Below are positions 1,151 through 20,956 of a stretch of 24,428 nucleotides of DNA, one piece after another (within the stretch, counting starts at the first letter, position 1; the number at the start of each line of letters is the position of its first letter). The DNA lies in IMG/VR virus record IMGVR_UViG_3300021957_000292, positions 1-24,428 of that record, one strand, 5' to 3'. Origin of the DNA: a virus. The position numbers and the translations under genes were made by a program. Under the pieces are notes generated by a model. That model saw only the letters and a program-made list of their open reading frames with translations, was not told where the DNA came from and searched no databases.

Positions 1151-1158
1151 TATTTATG
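1151..1158 (-). promoter_or_regulatory. Late-type promoter box CATAAATA for the fibre gene
   Basis: On the minus strand the 8-mer CATAAATA sits 25 bases before the fibre ATG. It matches the T4 late consensus TATAAATA except at the first, variable base. The spacing leaves a short leader. This is a motif match only. Confidence 0.55.
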
Positions 1159-1208: not shown

Positions 1209-1216
1209 AATAAATA
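1209..1216 (+). promoter_or_regulatory. Possible late-type box AATAAATA directly before the HNH-like gene
   Basis: AATAAATA lies 5 bases before the ATG at 1222. If used as a T4-type late promoter, transcription would start at about the ATG, giving a leaderless message. The surroundings are very AT-rich, so chance occurrence is quite possible. Confidence 0.25.
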
Positions 1217-9425: not shown

Positions 9426-9487
9426 TAAACTGAAGAGTATTGAACTATTTTCTCTGTTAAACTGAAGAGTATTGAACTATTTTCTCT
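9424..9487 (-). repeat. Perfect 32-base tandem duplication at the tape-measure gene end
   Basis: Copies at 9424-9455 and 9456-9487 are identical over 32 bases. The upstream copy (9487-9456) holds the last codons (EKIVQYSSV) and stop of the 1043-aa gene. The other copy lies untranslated between that stop and the gene 20 late box. This looks like a recent slippage or recombination event. Confidence 0.95.
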
Positions 9488-12400
9488 GACAGATCATTAC
9501 TTTCTGTTTGCTTGGAGAGTAGTTCTCCTAGTCTCTGATTGGTCAGTTTTGATTCTGCCAGTTGTTGTTCTGCTAGGATCTGTGTTTCATCTAATTTACC
9601 CAACTGCAAATCTTCTGTACCTGGTGCCAATTCATCTGATGCTTGTGCATCTGGATCTGTTACAAGATTGTTAGTGTCTGGGGGTGGTGGAATTACATGT
9701 CCCCTCTCTGCTAAAAGTTCAGCATCTAGTTCTGCTAAATCCGCGGCTTCTTTTGCTTTGAATCTTGCATCGGCTATAGGGTCGCGGCCAAATTGGTCTG
9801 ATTTTTGATATGCATCTGCTTCTTCTGCTGTTTTAAAGTTTTTAGCATACAGACCACCGCCTTCTTTAGTATCAGAAAGTTTATATGCATATGATCTAAA
9901 TTCACCAGTCAATGTGTCTAGCATAACTCCTGGAGGAAGTTCTTCTGGTTTAGCCTTTTCTATTTGTACTTGCTGACCAGTTATTTCTGCTACTACATTT
10001 GTTGCAACAATAAGTCTTGCAGTAGCCTCTGCTTGTTTATCAATCGAATCTTTTAATAAGTCTGTTTTAGTAACCATTTCTTTTTGCACTTCAACTACTG
10101 CATCATCAATCTCTGTCTGTGTATCTCCATCTAAACCAAGGTCTGCAATTAGTTTCTCATCAGCTTCTGATTCTTTTTTGATATCTGCTTGTTCAGCATC
10201 TGCTACTGTTTTCTCAGTTTCAAGTCCTTCATTGGCATCTTTCATCTGGTTTAGAATCTTAGTGATTTCTGCTTCATCGTCATCACTCATGTCATTATCT
10301 TCTAACATGGATTGAAGTGTATTTTGCGTCAGAGTTTTATCTTTTTGAGCCGCTCTAACTTTATCAAAGTCTACTGTACTGTCTTTGAATGCTCCTTTTT
10401 TATCATAAAAACCACTTTGCTCTGCTAAGGCTAAATTTGCTTTTCTAACATCTTTCTCAAGGCTTGCACCCATATTAGATCCGATCTTTTCACCAACTTC
10501 TGATCCACCTTTTCCACCTGCCCATGCGCCTAACCCTGCTCCAATAAGAGTACCTAGTGTTCCACCAATTGCTACTCCGACTGGACCACCAAATGCTCCG
10601 AGCATTGCTCCAGCTTTAGCACCTGCAAATGCGCCGCTTACGGCGCCGACCATATTACCAGTCATTTCACCAGTAGTTTCAGCATTAGTTACTGTGGTTC
10701 TTCTATCTGCTTCTGCTTGATCTATATTTTCGTCTGCAAGATCGTTTGCAATGTCTCGTCTTTCATCTTTGCCTTCATCATATGAACCATATGCCGCTAT
10801 AGCTCCAGTTGCAACACCTCCACCTATTTTAAACGCATTAGAACCTGCTAATCTAGTAGCAAGGCTTGCCCCTTTAGTACCAAGATTTTTAAACATGCCT
10901 TTCATGCCACCAGGACCACCTAATAGAGCCAATGACGTAGCCGCTTTTGCCGCCGCTATTCCTAAGGCTACGACTGCTCCAGCAGTCAATACCAATACTG
11001 CTGGACCAGCAAAGTCTAACAAACCATCTGAGGCTGTTCTGACTGATCTGGCCATGGCTTCTAACTCTGCTTGGAAATCTAATTGAGTATCTTTACCGCT
11101 TTTAGTAGTTTCATTAACATTGTCTAATGCTGTTTTTAATATCTCTCTCGCTTTATCTTCGTCTCCAGAGTCCATTGCTTGTTGATACAGATTTAAATTT
11201 TCTGCACTTAGACCAACTGATTTACCAAATCCTTCTGCATCAGCACCCATTCTAATGAGTGCATCACCAAATCTTTCTAAACCATCTTCTTGTCCAGAAA
11301 TAACATCAGACAAGATTTTTTGTGTTGCCGCCATTACTTCTTCAGGCTTGTCAGGATCAACACCTTCAAATGCAGTTGCAAGATCGCCAGCATTTAATCC
11401 TAACTGTGCGATTGCTGTAGTTGTCTCATCAAAGTTACCAGTAATCATTACTGTGTTAATTTGTTCTGCTAGATCAGGTCCTAATATTCTTGCCAAGGTA
11501 CCAGTCATTTGAGTTCTTGCACCTAACTCATCTTTCATTGACTGGGCTTTATCTTCTAATTCTTTTTTTCTAGCGGCATTTGTTTCATTAGCCGCTTCTC
11601 TTTCTAAGGCTGATATCTCACGTTGCTGGTTCATTGAGACTATTTTATTACGATATTCTGCTTTCTGTTGTTGTTCTGCGGCTATCTGTTGCTCGGCATT
11701 CCTACCAGTAATTTCAGATATCGCAGTTAAACTTTTTGCATACTCAAGTGATCTTTTTTGCAACTGACGTGCAGTAAGATTTTGGGCCTTTGTGTTAATA
11801 CCACTTGCTCTTTGAAGTTCTATGTAATTTGTTTGAACTGCATTCAAATCTTCAATTGTGTAACCAAGTCTAGCAAAACGTTTTTGTTCAGTCTTTGAGA
11901 TATTGGAGTATTCTAAGAATGCTTTAGCACCGTCAGTAGAGTTTGTGCCTAGTAATGCAACTGCTTCACTACTTTTTACCATCATGCCAGCAATTTTACT
12001 TAACATTTCACTAGTATAACCTGCTTCTCTGGCTAAGTCTGTCATACTATCTGTAGTGTTGCGAGTGCCATCACCCATTTCTGCAACAGTTACACCCATC
12101 TTACGCATTTGTCCACCGAACTCATTTTGTTCAGCAAACTGTGTAAGATATGCGGCAGAAAGTTCACCTAAAAGTTGGATGGCTACGTTAATCTGGGCAC
12201 CGAACGCCGGAAGTAGATTTTCTGCTAAATTACCTAAACTTTTGCCAGCATTTGTAGCTACACCACCTAAGTCTGCAAAAGAAGGTTGAGAATTAGTTAA
12301 GGCATCGCCTAAAGTGTTTAACGCCGCTATCGATTGATCATAGGCAGCCTTCGACCGCGTAGTATTATCTTCAGTCGCCCTGACATGCTTTTGCTCTGCC

Positions 12401-12588
12401 TCTGTCGCTTTTTTCTTCGCAGTAGAGTAAGTGCCCATACTGTTAGCCGCATCTTTCGCACTATCACCTAAACCGCCTAAACCGCCATTTGCGTTTTTGA
12501 TTGAGTCAGCAAGTTTATTAAAAGAATCAGGTAACGGACCCAATGACTTTATCAATCTTTCTATTTGTTCTTGGTCGTATTCTTCCAT
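9457..12588 (-). CDS. Large tape-measure-like tail protein
   Basis: At 1043 aa this is the largest gene in the window. The N-terminal third is helical and Ala/Thr/Asn-rich. The middle (about residues 300-350) is a charged coiled coil with EQQQKAEY and ALEREAANE. A strongly hydrophobic segment lies at about 526-560 (AVLVLTAGAVVALGIAAA) and a Gly/Ala zipper at about 636-700 (GAVSGAFAGAKAGAMLGAFG). The C-terminal part is acidic and Gln-rich. Size, long helices plus membrane-active Gly-zipper segments and the adjacent divergent hub-chaperone genes suggest a tail tape measure that may enter the host membrane. T4's own tape measure is gp29 (590 aa), and no clear similarity to it was seen, so a general structural role is the safe reading. 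ACTAAATA precedes it by 63 bases. Confidence 0.65.
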   Translation of the reverse strand: MEEYDQEQIERLIKSLGPLPDSFNKLADSIKNANGGLGGLGDSAKDAANSMGTYSTAKKKATEAEQKHVRATEDNTTRSKAAYDQSIAALNTLGDALTNSQPSFADLGGVATNAGKSLGNLAENLLPAFGAQINVAIQLLGELSAAYLTQFAEQNEFGGQMRKMGVTVAEMGDGTRNTTDSMTDLAREAGYTSEMLSKIAGMMVKSSEAVALLGTNSTDGAKAFLEYSNISKTEQKRFARLGYTIEDLNAVQTNYIELQRASGINTKAQNLTARQLQKRSLEYAKSLTAISEITGRNAEQQIAAEQQQKAEYRNKIVSMNQQREISALEREAANETNAARKKELEDKAQSMKDELGARTQMTGTLARILGPDLAEQINTVMITGNFDETTTAIAQLGLNAGDLATAFEGVDPDKPEEVMAATQKILSDVISGQEDGLERFGDALIRMGADAEGFGKSVGLSAENLNLYQQAMDSGDEDKAREILKTALDNVNETTKSGKDTQLDFQAELEAMARSVRTASDGLLDFAGPAVLVLTAGAVVALGIAAAKAATSLALLGGPGGMKGMFKNLGTKGASLATRLAGSNAFKIGGGVATGAIAAYGSYDEGKDERRDIANDLADENIDQAEADRRTTVTNAETTGEMTGNMVGAVSGAFAGAKAGAMLGAFGGPVGVAIGGTLGTLIGAGLGAWAGGKGGSEVGEKIGSNMGASLEKDVRKANLALAEQSGFYDKKGAFKDSTVDFDKVRAAQKDKTLTQNTLQSMLEDNDMSDDDEAEITKILNQMKDANEGLETEKTVADAEQADIKKESEADEKLIADLGLDGDTQTEIDDAVVEVQKEMVTKTDLLKDSIDKQAEATARLIVATNVVAEITGQQVQIEKAKPEELPPGVMLDTLTGEFRSYAYKLSDTKEGGGLYAKNFKTAEEADAYQKSDQFGRDPIADARFKAKEAADLAELDAELLAERGHVIPPPPDTNNLVTDPDAQASDELAPGTEDLQLGKLDETQILAEQQLAESKLTNQRLGELLSKQTESNDLSEKIVQYSSV

Positions 12589-12631: not shown

Positions 12632-12639
12632 ACTAAATA
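12632..12639 (+). promoter_or_regulatory. Late-type box ACTAAATA for the gp26-like gene
   Basis: The plus-strand ACTAAATA lies 54 bases before the ATG at 12694. It faces an identical minus-strand box at 12652-12659 across 12 bases, forming a dyad. Confidence 0.6.
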
Positions 12640-12651
12640 TATCTACAATAC

Positions 12652-12659
12652 TATTTAGT
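12652..12659 (-). promoter_or_regulatory. Late-type box ACTAAATA for the tape-measure-like gene
   Basis: The minus-strand copy of the same 8-mer lies 63 bases before the ATG at 12588. Transcripts from the two boxes would start almost back to back near 12645. Confidence 0.6.
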
Positions 12660-12693
12660 ATTGGTAAAATACCCATAAAATATGAGGAAGAAA

Positions 12694-13542
12694 ATGACAG
12701 AAAACAAAAACAATCCACTTAGACAATACTTTCGTAGACCAGCAGTGTTCATATCCCTGCCGTCAGGTGGAGAAGGATATGGTCCAGACGATATCGAATT
12801 TGAGGATGAAAACAATTTAGAATTGCCAGTTTATCCCATGACTGCTATCGATGAAATAACGACAAAAACACCAGACGCATTATTTAATGGTACTGCAACA
12901 GTAGAGATTATTAAAAGTTGTATTCCTGCTATTAAAAATCCTTGGAGTGTATTAAGTTGTGACATCGATGCAATTTTTATTGGTATTAAAGCCGCATCTG
13001 GTGACGAGGCAATCGAAGTAGAATCTACTTGTCCCAAAGAAGAATGTGGCGAAACAGAATCATACGCAATCAACTTACAAAATATGTTGCGAACTATTAC
13101 TTCTGGTGATTACAGTAAGCCTTATAATGTTGGTGAACTATCAGTTTACTTTGCTCCTATAAACTATAAAGAGATGAATGCTGTGAGTCTAAGACAGTTT
13201 GAAATACAAGCAAAGTATAAAGATATGAATCTTATTGTAGATGAAAAAGAACGTATTGAAAAAAGTCAAGAGGCATTAGTAGAAATAACATCTGTAACAA
13301 TGGAAGTACTAACTGGTGCAATTTCTAAGATTGTTGCCCCAGAAGGTGAAGAAATTACTGAAAAAGAATATATCATTGATTTCTTACAAAACTGTGATAC
13401 AAAAACATATGAAGGAATACGAGATTATAATGGTGAACTCAGAGCCGCAAGTACAATCAAATCATTAGATATGAAATGTGCAAAATGCGAACATGAATAC
13501 ACTCAGCCATTTACTCTCAACGCAACTGATTTTTTCGCATAA
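12694..13542 (+). CDS. 26: Baseplate hub subunit gp26-like; probable donor of a -1 frameshift
   Basis: T4-type baseplate hub or tail-assembly protein of the gp26-like family found in marine T4-like phages. Recognisable parts are FISLPSGGEGYGPDDI near the N-terminus, PVYPMTAIDEITTKTPDALF (about 45-64) and KSCIPAIKNPW. Two Cys pairs, C113/C118 and C262/C265, may bind one zinc. I chose ATG at 12694 (282 aa) over 12682 because GAGGAAG lies at proper distance before it. The gene ends GAT TTT TTC GCA TAA. T TTT TTC is a classical slippery heptamer, and a hairpin follows after 6 bases. The -1 frame is open to 13766 and encodes a gp51-like segment. It is divergent from the tape-measure-like gene, as expected for a tail chaperone, and has an ACTAAATA box. 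Confidence 0.85.
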   Translation: MTENKNNPLRQYFRRPAVFISLPSGGEGYGPDDIEFEDENNLELPVYPMTAIDEITTKTPDALFNGTATVEIIKSCIPAIKNPWSVLSCDIDAIFIGIKAASGDEAIEVESTCPKEECGETESYAINLQNMLRTITSGDYSKPYNVGELSVYFAPINYKEMNAVSLRQFEIQAKYKDMNLIVDEKERIEKSQEALVEITSVTMEVLTGAISKIVAPEGEEITEKEYIIDFLQNCDTKTYEGIRDYNGELRAASTIKSLDMKCAKCEHEYTQPFTLNATDFFA

Positions 13543-14274: not shown

Positions 14275-14838
14275 TTAATTAGGTAAAGTTTGTGTTGACT
14301 TGGTGTCGGTTAGCTGTGAGTTGGTCTCTGATATGCCTGAATATGCTTTGAATATTTTTTTGTTAAATTTGAAAAAGTGATCATGTTCTATAATAACCCA
14401 ATCAGCATGATCTGCTGAAGTGTAATACATAAACTGATCACTTACCCATGTATACTTACTAGGTACACATATGAAACGTCCTTTACGATTAAATTTCATA
14501 AACAGAACGTTTAAATCGCCTTCGTCGGCTACGTCCATTAATTGATCTAACCATGAATCTAGTTGCTTACATGAACCTGCAAGTACTTGATGAAAAGGAA
14601 AGTCTGCGTAGAATTTACATTCTACGTTAAGTTTGTCGAAACTTTGTCCAGGAACAATGTCCCCTTTAAAACTACGAATTTGACCCTCGTGCAGAATTTC
14701 TGTACGGGTTTGATTTTTACCACCTACATAAGCGCCTGATCCAGGTGCTCGTATAAAACTTTCTTCATAAAGTTCACTAAGATACTTTGCGATTTCTCTT
14801 TCGTATCCTGATCCTTTATTCTTAGACGGTGATGGCAT
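14275..14838 (-). CDS. Hjc-like Holliday junction resolvase (PD-(D/E)xK nuclease)
   Basis: The 187-aa protein starts KNKGSGYEREIAKYLSEL, then RAPGSGAYVGG, FKGDIV and NVECKFYADF. This is the archaeal Hjc-type resolvase pattern: Glu13, Asp60, Glu73 and Lys75 would form the metal site of a PD-(D/E)xK fold. The function would be cutting branched DNA made by recombination-dependent replication, so that packaging can proceed. T4 uses the unrelated endonuclease VII (gp49) for this. The gene is the last of the gp47-gp46-radical SAM-resolvase operon, 17 bases after the radical SAM stop, which fits a recombination role. The last 40 residues are extra to the nuclease core. A general restriction-like nuclease is the alternative. 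Confidence 0.75.
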   Translation of the reverse strand: MPSPSKNKGSGYEREIAKYLSELYEESFIRAPGSGAYVGGKNQTRTEILHEGQIRSFKGDIVPGQSFDKLNVECKFYADFPFHQVLAGSCKQLDSWLDQLMDVADEGDLNVLFMKFNRKGRFICVPSKYTWVSDQFMYYTSADHADWVIIEHDHFFKFNKKIFKAYSGISETNSQLTDTKSTQTLPN

Positions 14839-14855
14839 AATATATAGTTATCTCT

Positions 14856-15440
14856 TTACCACTCAGTGGCATAATTTTTATTTACTCTGTGCTGGGCACA
14901 TTTGTTCTGACACTCGTAAGAGCCGTGTATAAACTCGGATACCCAAAAAGAATCCATAACTACTTTGGGTAATTGTTTTTCATGTAAGTTATATTTCTTA
15001 CCTGTCTCTGCCCATTTGTCATTGTGACCGTATCTTGTCGCAACCCAACAACATGGATAAAACTCTCCCCTAGCATTGATATAACTTCCTTTGTTACCTA
15101 TGTGACAAAGAGGTCTCTCACTGCCTACGAGATTAGATTCTTCATACAACTTAATATTTGTTCTCATCCAAGGCTCTAATACTTCTTTGTCTGTTAATTT
15201 AAAAATTTCTCTTTCAAATCTATGACTAGATGATAACAGATTGTCACTTGGTTGTAAAGCATCTTCTTTCCCATAAGAGTCTTCGTATATCTTACCAAAC
15301 TTAGTACTCTTGGTTAATTGAAATGCATCAAAGCCTAATTCTTTTGCATAAGATTTCATATCTTCTATCTTATCTTCATTAAACTTGAAGCCTATTGCGT
15401 CCCAGACAGTGTAACATTTAGAATTATCAGTCAGTGCCAT
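14856..15440 (-). CDS. Radical SAM protein, C-terminal fragment (SPASM-like), frameshifted
   Basis: A 194-aa frame from an internal ATG at 15440. The same frame is open further upstream to about 15490 and there reads SIYRINSNWSSIIAGV, the missing link to the N-terminal half. The fragment ends with cysteines placed as in SPASM/twitch auxiliary cluster domains: C112, C130-C131, C177 and C181 (RPLCHIG, EFYPCCW, SYECQNKC). It therefore belongs to the same radical SAM enzyme as the fragment at 15431-15871. With one base restored the full protein would be about 338 aa. On its own it lacks the CxxxCxxC site, so it could not be catalytic. The substrate is unknown; related genes lie near gp46/47 in other marine T4-like phages (recollection). 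Confidence 0.7.
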   Translation of the reverse strand: MALTDNSKCYTVWDAIGFKFNEDKIEDMKSYAKELGFDAFQLTKSTKFGKIYEDSYGKEDALQPSDNLLSSSHRFEREIFKLTDKEVLEPWMRTNIKLYEESNLVGSERPLCHIGNKGSYINARGEFYPCCWVATRYGHNDKWAETGKKYNLHEKQLPKVVMDSFWVSEFIHGSYECQNKCAQHRVNKNYATEW

Positions 15441-15871
15441 GACACCAGCAATAATACTAGACCAATTAGAATTGATTCGATAGATACTATACTTTCATGG
15501 TCCCAACCATCGATGCTAAAATGTATTTGGTCTTGTTCGTCTAGCAGTTTTGCTAATTGTGTCCACCAATCTTCGTTTTTATATGATCCGTTAGTGACGA
15601 TAATGATCGCTATGCTAGGCTTTATAGATTTGAAATACTGGATGACTTCAATGAAGTCATGTGCATAGATAGGATCACCATCGTCACCACAGAATGTTAA
15701 TTTTTCTACATTCTTCAGAATGAATTCTTTAGGAAAGTTTTGTTTAAAGAAATCTAACTTAAGTTCAGTACTAACTAATGTGTCAGGAACTTCTTGTCTA
15801 GGACATCTAGGACACTTTAGTGTACACTTACTGCTGATCTCAATGTGCCAGTGCCAAAGTGCTAGGCTCAC
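15431..15871 (-). CDS. Radical SAM protein, N-terminal fragment, frameshifted
   Basis: A 146-aa frame starting at GTG 15871, overlapping the gp46 stop (GTGA). It carries the radical SAM cluster motif C16-x3-C20-x2-C23 in SSKCTLKCPRCPR. Strands of the partial TIM barrel follow: KLTFCGDDGDP (GGEP-equivalent), IIIVTNGSY and IHFSIDGWDHES. After HES at residue 127 the sequence turns into the hydrophobic nonsense tail IVSIESILIGLVLLLVSWH and stops. In the -1 frame the family-like sequence continues. Inserting a single A near 15488-15492 gives HESNSIYRINSNW and one continuous protein. No X XXY YYZ slippery heptamer is present here, so mutation or assembly error is more likely than programmed frameshifting. 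Confidence 0.75.
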   Translation of the reverse strand: MSLALWHWHIEISSKCTLKCPRCPRQEVPDTLVSTELKLDFFKQNFPKEFILKNVEKLTFCGDDGDPIYAHDFIEVIQYFKSIKPSIAIIIVTNGSYKNEDWWTQLAKLLDEQDQIHFSIDGWDHESIVSIESILIGLVLLLVSWH

Positions 15872-17634
15872 ATATTCTCCATTTCTCTGGTAGTACTATA
15901 TGTTGTAAATCCGTTCTCTTTAATAACTTGTAAGACACTAGCAACTCTTCCTGCTAGTTCTTCTCTATGTGAGACTAGCCAAATAGACTTGTTACGATTA
16001 CGAGCCATGTCTTTAAGAATAGCCATAGCATTTTCAACGCCTATTGAATCTAATCCAGAGTCAATCAATTCGTCAATAAACAATGTATTGATTGGGAAGT
16101 ATAAGTTCTCCCACACATCTCTAAATGCAAACGATAGTCCTAATATAAGTCTGTTACGTTCACCTCTACTTAAGTTGTCAAAGTCTAGTTCTCTACCCAA
16201 CTCTGTAATTTCTACAGATAAATCGTTTTGGAACACAACTTGATGCGGTAAGCCCATCTTATCTAAGTAAGATGTCAACCTTGAATTTAAATATGATAAG
16301 TTTTGATCAATAATCTTCTTACGTACAAACGAATCTTTGCTTGTTAAAAGGTCTAGTAAGAACTTCTGATGATCTCCTATACGAGATAATTCATTAATCT
16401 TGTCAAAGTCAAATTCTTGTAATGCATTGTTTTCCATGTCACTGATTTGATCAGTATATGGATTCTCTTCTTGTTCTTTACGTTTAACTTGTCCACTTAA
16501 GTCTTTGATTCTATTCTTGTGTTCAATTGCTTCTACTTCAGATGCATATGAAGTGATAGGTTTTTCTCCTATCTCTCCGATCTTGTCTTTTTCTTTTTCT
16601 AATTCTACATAGACTTCAGCCAATTCTCCTATATGAACATTGGCATCTTTTAATGATTCTTTTTTACTATCAAAAACTTGCGTATGTGCATCATCATGGA
16701 AGTCTTGTCCACAAGTGTGACATTTGTTCGTTTCTAGTATACTTATTTCTTTCTCTATCTTTGTAATAGACTTGGCTTCTCTATCAATATCAGACTGTGT
16801 TCTGACAAGTATTTTGTCGATATCTTTGTGTTCTTTAAGCCTTTCATTGTATATAACTAACTGTTTATGTCCAAGTAATTCTGCATCAATATCGAGTTTT
16901 TTTAATCTTTCGATATCATCTTTTAACTTAGTAATGTCTTCGTTTGTCTTGGCATCCCATAGTCTTGCTCTACTTTTAAGACTAGTAATTTGCTCTTCTA
17001 TTCGCTTGTTAGCCTCTTCAATTGCTTGTACTTTTAGTTGCTCATGCTGAATGTTTTCTTTGTTCTGCTTGATTATAACCTTTATCTTCTCTGCTTTTTC
17101 TGATAATAATGTTATGCCTAACAGTTGTTCGATGATGTCACGTTGCTGTGCTTGAGACATACTTAAGAAAGGCTGACTGTATGTGTTCAGTGCTATAACA
17201 TTTCTAAACATCGTAGGAGACATGCCAATGATCTTTTCAATAAGAAGTTGTGTCTCTTTGTTTTCACCTTGTGCTTCATTATCTTCTTCGTTAACACCAT
17301 CAATAAAGAATCTTAATAGATTTGGCTTACGACCACGTTCAATACGATACTCAATGCCATTGGCTTCAAAGTCTAGTGTGACCATCATACCTTTAGTATT
17401 AGTTCTATTGATTAGATTGTTTTGCTTGATATTATTAAGAGCGGTACCATACAATGCATAACTAACTGCTTGTATGAGTGTAGTCTTACCAGTACCATTT
17501 CTAGCACCATCGCCACCTAAATCTAAGTTATCCCCTAAGATAAGAGTAAGTTCTTGGTTATCTAAATCGACTGCTTGTGTGACAGAGCCTACACTTAGAA
17601 AGTTTCTTAACGTTACATTTTTTAATTTTATCAT
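15868..17634 (-). CDS. 46: Recombination endonuclease subunit gp46 (Rad50/SbcC-like)
   Basis: ATPase subunit of the gp46/gp47 complex, which resects DNA ends for recombination-dependent replication and degrades host DNA. The 588-aa protein has a Walker A motif at about 44-52 (ARNGTGKTT) and the Rad50-type zinc hook C305-H-T-C308 in the middle of two coiled-coil arms (about 180-300 and 310-400). The ABC signature LSRGERNRLILGL is at about 488 and Walker B NTLFIDELID at about 516-525. The switch His is in WLVSHREEL (556). T4 gp46 is similar in size (560 aa). It starts inside the gp47 stop (ATGA), giving translational coupling, and its own stop overlaps the radical SAM start. Confidence 0.96.
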   Translation of the reverse strand: MIKLKNVTLRNFLSVGSVTQAVDLDNQELTLILGDNLDLGGDGARNGTGKTTLIQAVSYALYGTALNNIKQNNLINRTNTKGMMVTLDFEANGIEYRIERGRKPNLLRFFIDGVNEEDNEAQGENKETQLLIEKIIGMSPTMFRNVIALNTYSQPFLSMSQAQQRDIIEQLLGITLLSEKAEKIKVIIKQNKENIQHEQLKVQAIEEANKRIEEQITSLKSRARLWDAKTNEDITKLKDDIERLKKLDIDAELLGHKQLVIYNERLKEHKDIDKILVRTQSDIDREAKSITKIEKEISILETNKCHTCGQDFHDDAHTQVFDSKKESLKDANVHIGELAEVYVELEKEKDKIGEIGEKPITSYASEVEAIEHKNRIKDLSGQVKRKEQEENPYTDQISDMENNALQEFDFDKINELSRIGDHQKFLLDLLTSKDSFVRKKIIDQNLSYLNSRLTSYLDKMGLPHQVVFQNDLSVEITELGRELDFDNLSRGERNRLILGLSFAFRDVWENLYFPINTLFIDELIDSGLDSIGVENAMAILKDMARNRNKSIWLVSHREELAGRVASVLQVIKENGFTTYSTTREMENM

Positions 17635-18647
17635 AAGGATTGATAAATCTCCAATAGTACACCCTTGTCATAGAAGTCACTCTCTATGTTTTTAATTTGA
17701 TCGACAATAATTGAATCGACACTCTCAAATGATATCTCGCCAGGTGCTAAGTCTTGTGAATGTTCCTCGTTCTTAACTGGAAGCAATGACATTTCTCTTA
17801 ATTCATGTTGCGGAATTAACTGTTCTCTGATATAATTAGATTCTTCATAAGAAATGTCGATATCCAAATGTACTCTAACATGAGCATTCTTAACAAGCAA
17901 CCCTTCTGGGTTCTCTAATACTTCACTTAGTTTATAAACTCTGTATACAGGTTGATCAGGCCAAGAATGAAAGATAGGTTCTTCGTCCCATTCTAACACC
18001 ATCATGCCTCTAGCATCATCTCCTGCATCTGCATAATTGTGAGGGAATGCATTACCCATATACCAAACGTTTTTTCTTGCTTGTCTTTTGTGAAAGTGTC
18101 CTGAGAATACTTTGTCGAAATGAGATAAGTGATCAGTGTTTGCACCGCCATGATCAGGCATTTCAATCATTGCATTCATATAGAAGTACGGTAACTCTAA
18201 GTGAGCAAAAAGATACTTGCCTTTCTTCTTTCTGAGTAACTTGTAATCATCACCACACAACCAAGGAGCAATAACACAGTCGCCTTCTTCGATAAAGTGA
18301 TCGACAATGACTACGTTCTTAAGATGTTTAGCCCATTCGACTGAATGAATATCACGTTTGTCTCTGTAATAGAGATCATGGTTACCTGTAATAAAATAGA
18401 CTTTTTCAAATGCATCGTTTAATTTCTCTAATGCATTGAGTCCGAATTGTAAAGTGTGCATGTTAATACTTGCACGATGGTGATTCCAGTCTCCCAAAAA
18501 GAAACAAGTCTCACAGCCTTCTGCTAGTGATTTCTCAATAAACCAATCCACAAAGTTGCTACAATCTTGGTTATGTTGTATACTATTACTCTTTAATCCA
18601 AAATGTATATCTGTGAATACAGCGGCTTTCTTAAAAAGATTTGACAT
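17631..18647 (-). CDS. 47: Recombination endonuclease subunit gp47 (Mre11/SbcD-like)
   Basis: Nuclease subunit partnering gp46. The 338-aa protein has the calcineurin-like metallophosphatase motifs: D13-I-H15 in VFTDIHFG, D53 in FFLGDWNHHR, N89-H90-D91 in ITGNHDLYY, the AHLELPY strand and GHFHKRQ near 178. The size matches T4 gp47 (339 aa). The C-terminal 100 residues form the helical and beta cap that binds gp46. It is the first gene of the recombination operon, with a sigma70-type promoter (18675-18703) and GGGAAAA before the ATG. Confidence 0.96.
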   Translation of the reverse strand: MSNLFKKAAVFTDIHFGLKSNSIQHNQDCSNFVDWFIEKSLAEGCETCFFLGDWNHHRASINMHTLQFGLNALEKLNDAFEKVYFITGNHDLYYRDKRDIHSVEWAKHLKNVVIVDHFIEEGDCVIAPWLCGDDYKLLRKKKGKYLFAHLELPYFYMNAMIEMPDHGGANTDHLSHFDKVFSGHFHKRQARKNVWYMGNAFPHNYADAGDDARGMMVLEWDEEPIFHSWPDQPVYRVYKLSEVLENPEGLLVKNAHVRVHLDIDISYEESNYIREQLIPQHELREMSLLPVKNEEHSQDLAPGEISFESVDSIIVDQIKNIESDFYDKGVLLEIYQSL

Positions 18648-18743: not shown

Positions 18744-19679
18744 CTACTCAGTGTATGTTTCTACTGGCTTTTCTGCACCTAAACCCGTGTAGTCTTTCAT
18801 CTGACGAGAGAAAGATGGGTTAAGTCCGTTCATTTCTAAAATATCGTCTCTGATATTTTGATTACGTTTTTCAGAGTTGAGAACTCTACAGAAACTGTTT
18901 GTGATAGCCGCAGTATAGTATGCGAAAGGATTCGCAGACTTGGCTTCGTTAAATCTTAATCCTACGTAAGTCAACTGTAAGATAGCAGAGTTACGCATTT
19001 CATCGTTGTAAGTATAACCACGCCAGTTATACTTCATGGCATATTTTTCACATAGCATAATGTACATACGTGCTAGTTTGTCAGTTAATGCTCCGTTAGT
19101 AGCACTGAAAGAACCAGTCTTAACACCGCCTTTCCAATGTGATTTGCCAACTAAACTTAGTGTCATTGTGTTAGCATCTAATACATAATGATGAAATGGT
19201 GGAAAATTAACTTTAGCATAAACTAAATCTTCAGCAACTGGTTTAGTTGCTTTTTTGTTGCTCTCTAAATCTAATAATTCTGCATCTGTGCTATCATCAA
19301 AATCAATTATATCAACTGCCTTTTTCTTCTTAACTATCTTTCTTGGTTGTTTTTGTGTTACTGGAATGTGATCCCATGTCATAACCCTAAACATTAATCC
19401 GTCAGTTTCGATTGTTTTTGGATCAATTTTGTTTTTACCAGTTAACCCTTGCTCTGCTGATAGTCTAAGAGACTTTTGCAACTTTGCTTCTTTAATTTGG
19501 GTTGGCTTCAAGCACCAAGCAAGACTTTTTTCTAGTCCTGACTCAAACATATCTGCGATTAAATCAAATTGATGATACTCTTGTTTGGTATATGAACAGT
19601 ATGATGTTTTACTCTTGTGAATCTCTTTAAGAATATCTTTGTTGTTTAGATAGTTTGTAGTTTTTCTAGGTGCTGGCAT
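18744..19679 (-). CDS. 55: Late-transcription sigma factor gp55 with large internal insertion
   Basis: The T4-type sigma factor that directs host RNA polymerase to late promoters. The N-terminus TTNYLNNKDILKEIHKSK matches the start of gp55 (NYVNNK in T4). The sigma region-2-like core is at about 199-280: LARMYIMLCEKYAMKYNWRGYTYNDEM, then RFNEAKSANPFAYYTAAITNSFCRVLNSEKRNQNIRDD. T4 gp55 is 185 aa; this one is 311 aa. The extra part is about 50-195 and includes a Lys-rich stretch (RKIVKKKK), an acidic one (DIIDFDDSTDAELLDLES) and NFPPFHHYVLD..SLVGKSHWKGG. The C-terminus ends EKPVETYTE and shows no T4-like hydrophobic clamp-binding tail. AAGGAAAA precedes the ATG. The promoter is sigma70-type, so expression begins with host polymerase. 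Confidence 0.9.
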   Translation of the reverse strand: MPAPRKTTNYLNNKDILKEIHKSKTSYCSYTKQEYHQFDLIADMFESGLEKSLAWCLKPTQIKEAKLQKSLRLSAEQGLTGKNKIDPKTIETDGLMFRVMTWDHIPVTQKQPRKIVKKKKAVDIIDFDDSTDAELLDLESNKKATKPVAEDLVYAKVNFPPFHHYVLDANTMTLSLVGKSHWKGGVKTGSFSATNGALTDKLARMYIMLCEKYAMKYNWRGYTYNDEMRNSAILQLTYVGLRFNEAKSANPFAYYTAAITNSFCRVLNSEKRNQNIRDDILEMNGLNPSFSRQMKDYTGLGAEKPVETYTE

Positions 19680-19728
19680 TAATTTTCCTTTTGGTTAGTT
19701 GAGTTAGATAGATATAACTATGAGATGT

Positions 19729-19757
19729 ATTATACATCAACACTGTCCTATATGCAA
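19729..19757 (-). promoter_or_regulatory. Sigma70-type promoter of gp55
   Basis: On the minus strand TTGCAT (19757-19752), a 17-base spacer and TATAAT (19734-19729) lie about 50 bases before the gp55 ATG. Confidence 0.65.
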
Positions 19758-19791
19758 CTGATACGGGTAAATTTCCGGGGTATTTTGCAAA

Positions 19792-19799
19792 GATAAATA
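19792..19799 (+). promoter_or_regulatory. Late-type box GATAAATA for the baseplate gene run
   Basis: GATAAATA lies 60 bases before the ATG at 19860 and is the only late-type box seen ahead of the plus-strand baseplate genes. Confidence 0.6.
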
Positions 19800-19815
19800 T
19801 ATCATGTGAGATTAC

Positions 19816-19823
19816 TATTTATA
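19816..19823 (-). promoter_or_regulatory. Perfect T4 late box TATAAATA facing gp55
   Basis: The minus strand has the exact T4 late consensus TATAAATA, 137 bases upstream of gp55 and facing the plus-strand box at 19792-19799 across 16 bases. It could give gp55 a second, self-driven promoter. Confidence 0.5.
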
Positions 19824-19859: not shown

Positions 19860-20633
19860 ATGCCAGAAGAACAACAAGAAGGAGCGATTGATGCCATCAC
19901 CGCCGCTCAAGCATCTGATTGGAGAGTTAGGCTAGCCTTAGCGCCTGACGCCAACTATCTATATAAAGATAGTCAGCCTGGAATTATGGCACCTTTAGCG
20001 GCTACAGATGGAGTTGTATTTCCTTATACGCCTGGGATTAATATTAGTTATGCGGCAAACTATGATGGCGCACACCCAACGCATACAAACTTTAAAATAA
20101 ATCAATACAAAAACAGTATGATTTCTGATATCTCAGTGAGTGCAGACTTTACTTGCCAAGACACATTTGAAGCAAACTATCTATTAGCATCTATACACTT
20201 TTTTAAATCTATGACTAAAATGTTTTATGGACAAGATGAAAACCCAAGAAACGGAACACCTCCTCCATTAGGATTTTTTCATGGTCTAGGAACATTTCAG
20301 TTTAATCGTCACCCTGTAGGCATTACTAATTTTTCATATGCGTTGCCTAAAGATGTAGACTATATTCGAGCAACAAGTACAGACACAGCGGGAGCAGATG
20401 CAGAAACTACTCTGATTGGCGGTCAGTTATCTCCTGGTGGTAGTATACCACCTGCTAACTTTGCAGTTACTGAATCGACTGGGATAACATATGTCCCAAC
20501 AAAGATGACTGTCACACTCACATGTATACCGATTCTTAGTAGAAATACTATTAGTAATAAGTTTAGTCTCAAAGAGTATGCTAAAGGAGCATTGACTCGT
20601 GGTGCTAAGAATGACTTCCCAGGTATTTGGTAA
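19860..20633 (+). CDS. Baseplate/tail structural protein, possibly a gp48/gp54-like tube-junction protein
   Basis: A 257-aa protein beginning an uninterrupted baseplate gene run. Conserved-looking parts are DWRVRLALAPDANYLYK (about 20-36), VFPYTPGINISYAANYDG (about 57-74), DISVSADFTCQDTFEANYLLASIHFFKS and MTKMFYGQDENPR. The near-end segment reads YVPTKMTVTLTCIPILSRN. The composition is beta-rich, like tail-tube-fold proteins, which would suit the tube initiator or cap at the baseplate (T4 gp48 or gp54). I do not recognise it with certainty. AGGA lies before the ATG. Its stop overlaps the next start (TAATG), so the two are translationally coupled. Confidence 0.6.
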   Translation: MPEEQQEGAIDAITAAQASDWRVRLALAPDANYLYKDSQPGIMAPLAATDGVVFPYTPGINISYAANYDGAHPTHTNFKINQYKNSMISDISVSADFTCQDTFEANYLLASIHFFKSMTKMFYGQDENPRNGTPPPLGFFHGLGTFQFNRHPVGITNFSYALPKDVDYIRATSTDTAGADAETTLIGGQLSPGGSIPPANFAVTESTGITYVPTKMTVTLTCIPILSRNTISNKFSLKEYAKGALTRGAKNDFPGIW

Positions 20634-20956
20634 TGGCTACTCAAAAAAACAACATATATCCGAAGTCTAGTCCATACTATAATTCACAGATTGTGAATAA
20701 TAATTATTTAGATGTGTTGCAACCAGGAGTTCCTATTCCAAAATTACCAAATGATGCAGATTTTACAATTACTGCACAATATGAATTTAGACCAGATTTG
20801 TTAGCACAGCACTTGTATAATAATTCTCGTTTGTGGTGGGTATTTTCTGCGAGAAATCCAAATTCTCTTGGACCAGACCCATACTTTAACTTTGTCACAG
20901 GACTTAAAATTAAAATACCAACACAAAACACTATATCAACTGCCCTAGGTATCTAA
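20633..20956 (+). CDS. 53: Baseplate wedge protein gp53-like
   Basis: A 107-aa protein whose second half matches the gp53/LysM-like wedge family: ITAQYEFRPDLLAQHLYNN, SRLWWVFSARNPNSLGPDP, FNFVTGLKIKIPT. In T4 gp53 joins neighbouring wedges in the inner baseplate; T4's protein is 196 aa, so this is a short form of the core domain. I take ATG at 20633, overlapping the previous stop as TAATG, rather than the TTG at 20627. It ends one base before the next start. Gene 53 directly ahead of the hub genes agrees with T4 order (53-5). Confidence 0.85.
   Translation: MATQKNNIYPKSSPYYNSQIVNNNYLDVLQPGVPIPKLPNDADFTITAQYEFRPDLLAQHLYNNSRLWWVFSARNPNSLGPDPYFNFVTGLKIKIPTQNTISTALGI

Follow-up and report, generated by a model that had tools for sequence, protein, structure and literature searches.

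A conserved compact pair of putative late promoters between a late sigma factor gene and a virion operon in a clade of T4-like phages

Here, we describe two short promoter-like boxes that face each other between the gene for a gp55-type late sigma factor and an operon of virion and baseplate genes in a 24,428-base virus record (the window, i.e., the whole stretch of DNA that was analyzed), which belongs to a T4-like phage with kinship to jumbo phages. With a probability of about 0.68, we read both boxes as T4-type late promoters that together make up a single compact, bidirectional late promoter, whose gp55-directed half would provide late, autogenous transcription of the sigma factor gene in addition to a sigma70-like promoter. 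T4 late promoters are gp55-dependent, carry TATAAATA at positions -13 to -6, start transcription 6 nt past the box and need no -35 element; promoters of this type are activated by the gp45 sliding clamp.

Results

Two facing boxes at the gp55 border

The site and its gene neighborhood comprise the following features, with functions predicted from profile matches:

19792 to 19799, plus strand: putative late box GATAAATA, read directly, for the virion/baseplate operon; predicted start ~19805
19816 to 19823, minus strand: putative late box TATAAATA (reading TATTTATA on the plus strand), aimed at gp55; predicted start ~19810, leader ~131 nt
19683 to 19690, minus strand: ribosome binding site AAGGA of gp55
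18744 to 19679, minus strand: gp55-type late sigma factor, 311 aa (phrog_12791, E 1.1e-70; phrog_234, E 3e-23)
17631 to 18647, minus strand: gp47-like recombination nuclease subunit, SbcD-like (phrog_100, E 9e-66)
15868 to 17634, minus strand: gp46-like recombination nuclease subunit, SbcC-like (phrog_77, E 7.5e-101)
14856 to 15871, minus strand: two radical-SAM-like frames, 15431-15871 and 14856-15440 (weak Pfam matches below the cut-off)
14275 to 14838, minus strand: nuclease that ends the gp55-strand block (PHROG, RusA-like resolvase; Pfam, PDDEXK_15, E 1.5e-26)
19860 to 20633, plus strand: virion structural protein, encoded by the gene that opens the baseplate-side operon (phrog_12050, E 2.7e-44)
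20633 to 20956, plus strand: gp53-like baseplate wedge protein (phrog_7145, E 8.5e-21; PF11246, E 0.0016, below the cut-off)

The boxes GATAAATA (plus) and TATAAATA (minus) face each other with 16 bases between them, and the site separates gp55 on the minus strand from the virion/baseplate operon on the plus strand. Direct reading of the sequence reproduced exactly the face-to-face arrangement and the 16-base gap that the original prediction had placed between gp55 and the baseplate genes, together with its perfect minus-strand box, which agrees with the T4-type octamer TATAAATA at 8/8 positions; the plus-strand box agrees at 7/8. The site consists of two separate boxes and not of one shared -10 element read both ways, and the boxes precede and point at presumed late genes, lateness being taken from the virion functions. 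The resolvase label of the nuclease is uncertain because its Pfam match is to PDDEXK_15, other than the PHROG assignment. The radical-SAM-like frame pair sits within the recombination block, between gp46 and this nuclease.

The phage encodes a gp55-type sigma factor of its own, which is of a long type (311 aa vs 185 aa in T4) and gave no match in a Pfam search. Its best cultured matches are Phosso, MIJ3/PA5oct and Atu_ph07 (36-41% identity), and among 50,697 phage records, 197 of which match gp55, the top identity was 41% and no member of its clade, a group of uncultured giant T4-like phages, was seen. A T4-type clamp epitope was not obvious at the gp55 C-termini, as compared by eye with the T4 end, and the gp45 clamp profile PF02916 matched 0/5 relatives, with the control genomes also giving no match, so that this absence carries no weight.

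Distribution of the boxes in the window and in relatives

Loose octamer matches carry no evidential weight, since TATAAATA, when one mismatch is allowed, shows no enrichment across the window (46 found vs 55 expected). The 7-mer [AC]TAAATA, which was picked after sight of CTAAATA at the gp26 site and in relatives, has 11 sites in the window, 10 of which are non-coding and have a gene start no more than 150 nt away in the direction in which they point; with a non-coding share of 5.9% of bases, the binomial P for 10/11 non-coding boxes is 5e-12. Under a stricter coding call, 9/11 sites were non-coding and 9/9 of those were aimed at a gene start, and the other first bases tried in the window (GTAAATA, TTAAATA) were mostly coding. 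Four relatives of 58, 128, 361 and 364 kb, in which genes were called by a simple longest-frame rule, had 11/20, 27/45, 82/182 and 74/127 of their boxes, respectively, in non-coding DNA, which makes up only 3-8% of these records. Of these non-coding boxes, 11, 24, 74 and 67 had a gene start ahead of them at no more than 200 nt, compared with 4, 13, 23 and 21 when the orientation was reversed (pooled, 176/194 vs 61). Judged by position and orientation, this distribution is the behavior of a promoter element of the T4-type late-promoter form. Variants of the late box are known from other phages, namely, CTAAATA in Aeh1 (PMC1524935) and NATAAATA in S-PM2 (PMC2984593; see also PMC2988020), and for CBB, a related jumbo phage in culture, ATAAATA has been proposed as the late motif (PMC5259590).

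As a detector of box pairs, the pattern TAAATA-N8-24-TATTTA was rejected: in nine relatives it gave 36 matches vs 29 in the reversed control, with 4/9 relatives lacking any excess, because it takes no account of the first base or of the gene context. Between divergent genes, nine face-to-face pairs with a gap of at most 16 bases were found in five records (the window and the four relatives above), and by their coordinates all of these compact pairs lie at one of two borders, that of gp55 or that of gp26. The gp55 border of G005 is arranged back-to-back with a gap of 3.

In G003 and G005 (loci L270-L273, L281, L282, L287, L292 and L295), late boxes also occur at the head of a repeated leader of ~70 nt, with 11 copies in G003 and 3 in G005 as counted by eye. 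Its order is late box, stem, UCUAA(C/U)GCU, AGGAGC and start codon, and the stem shows two-sided changes (GUAGUU..AACUAC vs GUGAGU..ACUCAC) around a CGCGG..CC core. The genes that follow the leader look, from nine translations inspected by eye, like homing endonucleases of two unrelated types (HNH-like and GIY-YIG-like); a search of the window for the leader pattern did not find it.

Conservation and geometry of the pair at the gp55 border

Relatives were drawn from the best 80 of 597 confirmed and the best 80 of 117, and as only the best-scoring ones were kept, the closest relatives are over-represented. A first comparison, of 148 loci with both genes, with starts less than ~330 nt apart and identical ones merged, yielded 31 regions. 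In a set of 97 regions, merged when identical within 200 nt, both boxes were present within 320 nt in 95, and two had the away-pointing box only. For the main comparison of 249 loci, pieces of long records and T4 were left out (11), and 231 of the 238 loci searched had a gp55 match. After truncated starts, short proteins and loci with less than 170 nt upstream had been dropped and identical ones merged, 155 distinct gp55 upstream regions were obtained, which are not independent, many of them being close relatives. They divide into 95 clade regions (best query, the window gp55) and 60 others, among which the neighbor gene was identified for the annotated cultured records only.

A gp55-directed box was present in 93/95 clade regions vs 10/60 outside the clade, and the box pointing away from gp55 in 95/95 and 57/60, respectively. 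The compact pair itself, with a gap of 0-16, was found in 92/95 clade regions vs 2/60 outside (L215 and L219). Among the clade regions that deviate, L120 and L138 lack an exact gp55-directed box (by eye, each has a one-mismatch form), and in L078 the boxes are 41 bases apart. Dinucleotide shuffles of 170-nt regions contained a box in one direction in 12% of cases and in both directions in 1.5%, vs both within 170 nt in 93/95 observed regions. Chance matches in AT-rich DNA, for which the lack of enrichment of the one-mismatch octamer in the window might speak, are refuted by these comparative data, the gp55-directed box occurring in nearly every clade region vs 12% of shuffles, and we consider their probability negligible.

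The gp55 border looks different elsewhere. In nine cultured jumbo phages with a divergent neighbor, the gap holds the away-pointing box only (9/9); the gp55-directed match of Atu_ph07, 223 nt upstream, lies outside the gap between gp55 and its neighbor. In the 1.8 kb upstream of T4 gene 55 there is no [AC]TAAATA towards the gene, with GTAAATA at 254 nt and CTAAATA just inside the gene, so that the T4 layout, as far as examined, does not include feedback by the late sigma factor. Within 600 nt upstream of seven other T4-like gp55 genes, five had no [ACGT]TAAATA, RB43 had TTAAATA at 80 nt and phiN3 had CTAAATA at 405 nt. As the gp55-side box is rare outside the clade and absent from the gaps of the nine cultured jumbo phages and from the T4 region examined, it is a feature of the window's clade, and gp55 does not need such a box in general.

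A tree of 151 distinct gp55 proteins (quick method, SH-aLRT) united all 92 rows of the window-like type in one group with support 100, of which 59 were face-to-face, 30 compact back-to-back and 1 a wide pair, and 2 were without an exact gp55-side box. Whether the box was gained or lost can be inferred but not fixed, because branches are long and the root is not firmly placed. Within the group, all back-to-back rows fall in a single 38-row subclade (support 97), where 6 face-to-face rows are also found, pointing to several geometry switches there. Gaps were mostly 8-16 bases in face-to-face pairs (a few 0-1) and 0-5 in back-to-back pairs, and lineages in which a face-to-face pair had become back-to-back kept both directions. 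Over the 55 face-to-face regions whose gap was at least 8, the gap had a standard deviation of 1.9, vs 13.8 for the distance between pair and gp55; the box pair moves as a unit.

A second compact pair at the gp26 border and a third, wide pair

The original prediction had considered the gp55 site a repeat of a layout elsewhere in the window, where the following features are found, listed together with a third divergent pair for comparison:

12632 to 12639, plus strand: putative late box ACTAAATA for the gp26-like gene, member of a face-to-face pair
12652 to 12659, minus strand: putative late box ACTAAATA for the gene of the 1043-aa tail-associated protein, member of the same pair
12682 to 13542, plus strand: gp26-like baseplate hub gene (PF12322, E 8.5e-13; phrog_150, E 5e-17)
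9457 to 12588, minus strand: tail-associated protein, 1043 aa (weak matches to phrog_1047 and phrog_16692; no Pfam match)
1151 to 1158, minus strand: putative late box CATAAATA, third divergent pair
1209 to 1216, plus strand: putative late box AATAAATA, third divergent pair

The face-to-face layout at 12632-12659 was as predicted, but the boxes differ from those at gp55, reading ACTAAATA on both strands, and are 12 bases apart. We compiled 108 loci with a gp26 match among the best-scoring relatives; with truncated and short ones dropped and duplicates merged, 70 distinct clade regions remained, all of which (70/70) were face-to-face with a gap of 5-14. Among ten cultured jumbo phages, five were face-to-face at this border (MIJ3, 12; RaK2, 12; Munch, 14; XbC2, 25; CBB, 26), 121Q, SCTP-2 and Phosso (GTAAATA form) were back-to-back and wider, and Atu_ph07 and Vibrio phage 2.275, in the latter of which the neighbor gene is not divergent, had the gp26-directed box only. 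Divergent late promoters are known from the intergenic region of T4 genes 26 and 51, where we found opposing late boxes within ~20 bases, overlapping or back-to-back; overlapping divergent late promoters of the T4 baseplate cluster were reportedly described by Scarlato and co-workers in Virology in 1989.

Facing boxes are inherently an inverted repeat, which could instead serve as the operator of a repressor that binds as a dimer, or form a hairpin or terminator in the RNA. The gp26 site lends some weight to such a function, as its RNA folds slightly better than shuffled sequences do (z -2.4 and -2.0) and the first bases of the two arms agree in 51/70 pairs, and there may be a weak preference for a palindrome at that site. 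A stable hairpin at the gp55 site, on the other hand, was rejected since RNA folds there were no better than those of shuffles (z -0.6 and -0.3), and the arms mismatch at the first base in 11/61 face-to-face pairs at gp55 and in 19/70 at gp26. Moreover, arm order reverses between lineages with both directions kept, as expected of two promoters and not of a hairpin or fixed operator, and single boxes of identical sequence precede other genes; an operator or hairpin in place of two promoters is therefore very improbable.

A more serious alternative, although we still regard it as unlikely, is that two independent late promoters lie close together merely because the intergenic space is short, with no coupling between them. 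The third pair (back-to-back, 52 bases between the 7-mer cores) is by its layout two plain promoters, and of the 19 divergent borders with two boxes in G003 and G005, the 15 others have gaps >16. Such independence would leave unexplained that the small gap is held at exactly two borders, i.e., at gp55 in all but three clade regions and at gp26 throughout, while gp55 has diverged to ~63% identity, and that the distance to the gene varies while the gap stays small. Overlap of the two polymerase footprints follows from the geometry, whether it is used or not.

Control of gp55 and of the genes downstream

Between the box pair and gp55, two further elements are found:

19729 to 19757, minus strand: sigma70-like gp55 promoter, TTGCAT-17-TATAAT
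19763 to 19771, minus strand: conserved element TTTACCCGT, located 5 bases ahead of the -35 element of the gp55 promoter

The sigma70-type promoter that had been proposed for gp55 is present, with TTGCAT at 19757-19752, TATAAT at 19734-19729 and a 17-base spacer, and its TTG and TA..AT columns are kept in 23 close relatives. Consensus promoter scans of the window did not list it, because its -35 element fits TTGACA at 3/6 positions only. The upstream element contributes TTTACCC to 70/95 clade regions vs 0/60 outside; TTTACCCGT occurs once in the window, and G001 has one extra non-coding copy besides that at gp55. This element may serve the early or middle gp55 promoter as an activator site or a UP-type site. 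In place of such a late box, the gp55 gene of CBB has a predicted middle-type promoter before it (PMC5259590), which counts against our reading.

The proposal that gp55 is also under its own late control draws support from the position and orientation of the minus-strand box and from its conservation. A sigma factor gene with a conserved box that would be of its own specificity, recognition by this very gp55 being presumed, is seen in all clade regions but two, and as the box was kept even after the switch in geometry, late self-driven transcription of gp55 appears to be the best reading. Hence, gp55 probably helps to drive its own late production.

The gp55-side box could also be a real late promoter that is kept for the genes downstream, i.e., gp46/47 and above all the PDDEXK/RusA-like nuclease, which might debranch DNA before packaging, with extra gp55 as a by-product; we hold this to be possible, at somewhat less than even odds. 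Endonuclease VII of T4 (gp49) is required late for packaging. In all 66/66 clade loci that have the compact pair and at least 6 kb downstream, the nuclease is on the gp55 strand, whereas outside the clade it is on the opposite strand in eight visible cases and on the gp55 strand in two (L222 and L223), and both of these carry a late box directly before the nuclease gene. Of 12 outside loci inspected, nine yielded the nuclease again, with a late box 15-28 nt upstream in four (L306, L308, L311 and L312) and 285 nt upstream in L313; the remaining four of the nine have no box within 1.5 kb of it. The strand association is weak because it is phylogenetically close to a single event. In addition, among 74 clade loci with the compact pair and the nuclease on the gp55 strand, 33 have additional boxes between gp55 and nuclease, and L120 lacks both an exact gp55-side box and any other box ahead of the nuclease. 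The nuclease may be the real reason for the gp55-side box, but feedback on gp55 and late supply of the nuclease are compatible and not mutually exclusive.

A model for the shared site

Our preferred reading, a bidirectional late promoter with autogenous control of gp55, would operate as follows. During early and middle infection, host-type RNA polymerase would transcribe gp55 from the sigma70-like promoter at 19757-19729, which presumably suffices to launch the late program. Late in infection, the plus-strand box would give rise to RNA of the virion/baseplate operon from ~19805, and gp55-polymerase at the minus-strand box would produce RNA from ~19810 that covers gp55, gp47, gp46, the two radical-SAM-like frames and the PDDEXK/RusA-like nuclease; no terminator-like site was found on the minus strand from 19860 to 13500, and in 41 of the 74 clade loci that have the compact pair and the nuclease on the gp55 strand, no further same-strand [AC]TAAATA intervenes between gp55 and the nuclease. 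By acting at this box, gp55 would sustain its own synthesis in a positive feedback and the recombination/nuclease block would stay on. A counterpoint is that the leader of ~131 nt would traverse the sigma70-like promoter.

The predicted starts, which assume T4 spacing, are 19805 (plus) and 19810 (minus) at gp55 and 12645 (plus) and 12646 (minus) at gp26. At gp55, both predicted starts fall between the boxes, at a distance of 5 bases from each other, so the site would admit one polymerase at a time, and transcription of the virion operon and of the gp55 block would compete. Each polymerase would cover the opposite box, making occupancy mutually exclusive, and thus the two directions probably exclude each other. 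More speculatively, and in our view doubtful as a whole, the pair could act as an arbiter, a single-polymerase site that is split between more late sigma factor (with recombination and nuclease genes) and virion parts, so that the feedback would be self-limiting. The clade would have added the sigma-side half beside an older virion box and later altered the geometry, the halves never being long apart.

Discussion

The boxes described here are, by their sequence, ordinary T4-type late boxes; what appears to be new is their arrangement as a conserved compact pair that ties a late-sigma gene to the neighboring virion operon, and a literature search found no title or abstract describing such a pair at gp55. 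A clade with a late box on the late-sigma gene, locked to a virion promoter, is a natural test case for whether T4-like phages can have self-sustaining late transcription and for the way in which opposing polymerases share a single site. It also provides a clean late-promoter marker for phages known from metagenomes only.

With T4 late promoters, the boxes of the window share the sequence, the single short element and the position before late genes. In contrast to T4, the clade keeps compact opposing pairs at two fixed borders, and one of the boxes in the window points at the late-sigma gene itself. The opposing late boxes at the gp26 border resemble those at T4 genes 26/51, which are overlapping or back-to-back, whereas the gp26 pair of the window is face-to-face.

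Bidirectional promoters of E. coli, as studied by Warman, Grainger and co-workers, provide another comparison (PMC12825309). There, too, opposing starts are too close for two polymerases at once, which in the window would follow from predicted starts, and competition was absent at basal activity and appeared only at higher activity. The E. coli promoters have a shared -10 element, with starts commonly 10, 18 or 23 bp apart, whereas the window has two separate facing phage-sigma boxes whose predicted starts are separated by 5 bp at gp55 and by 1 bp at gp26.

Finally, in S-PM2 and RB49, 'middle' genes combine a sigma70-type promoter with a late promoter ahead of the same gene, an arrangement thought to replace MotA-type control (PMC2984593). 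The window gp55, with its sigma70-like promoter and late box, resembles this dual control, but here the controlled gene is gp55 and the late box is one half of a shared pair.
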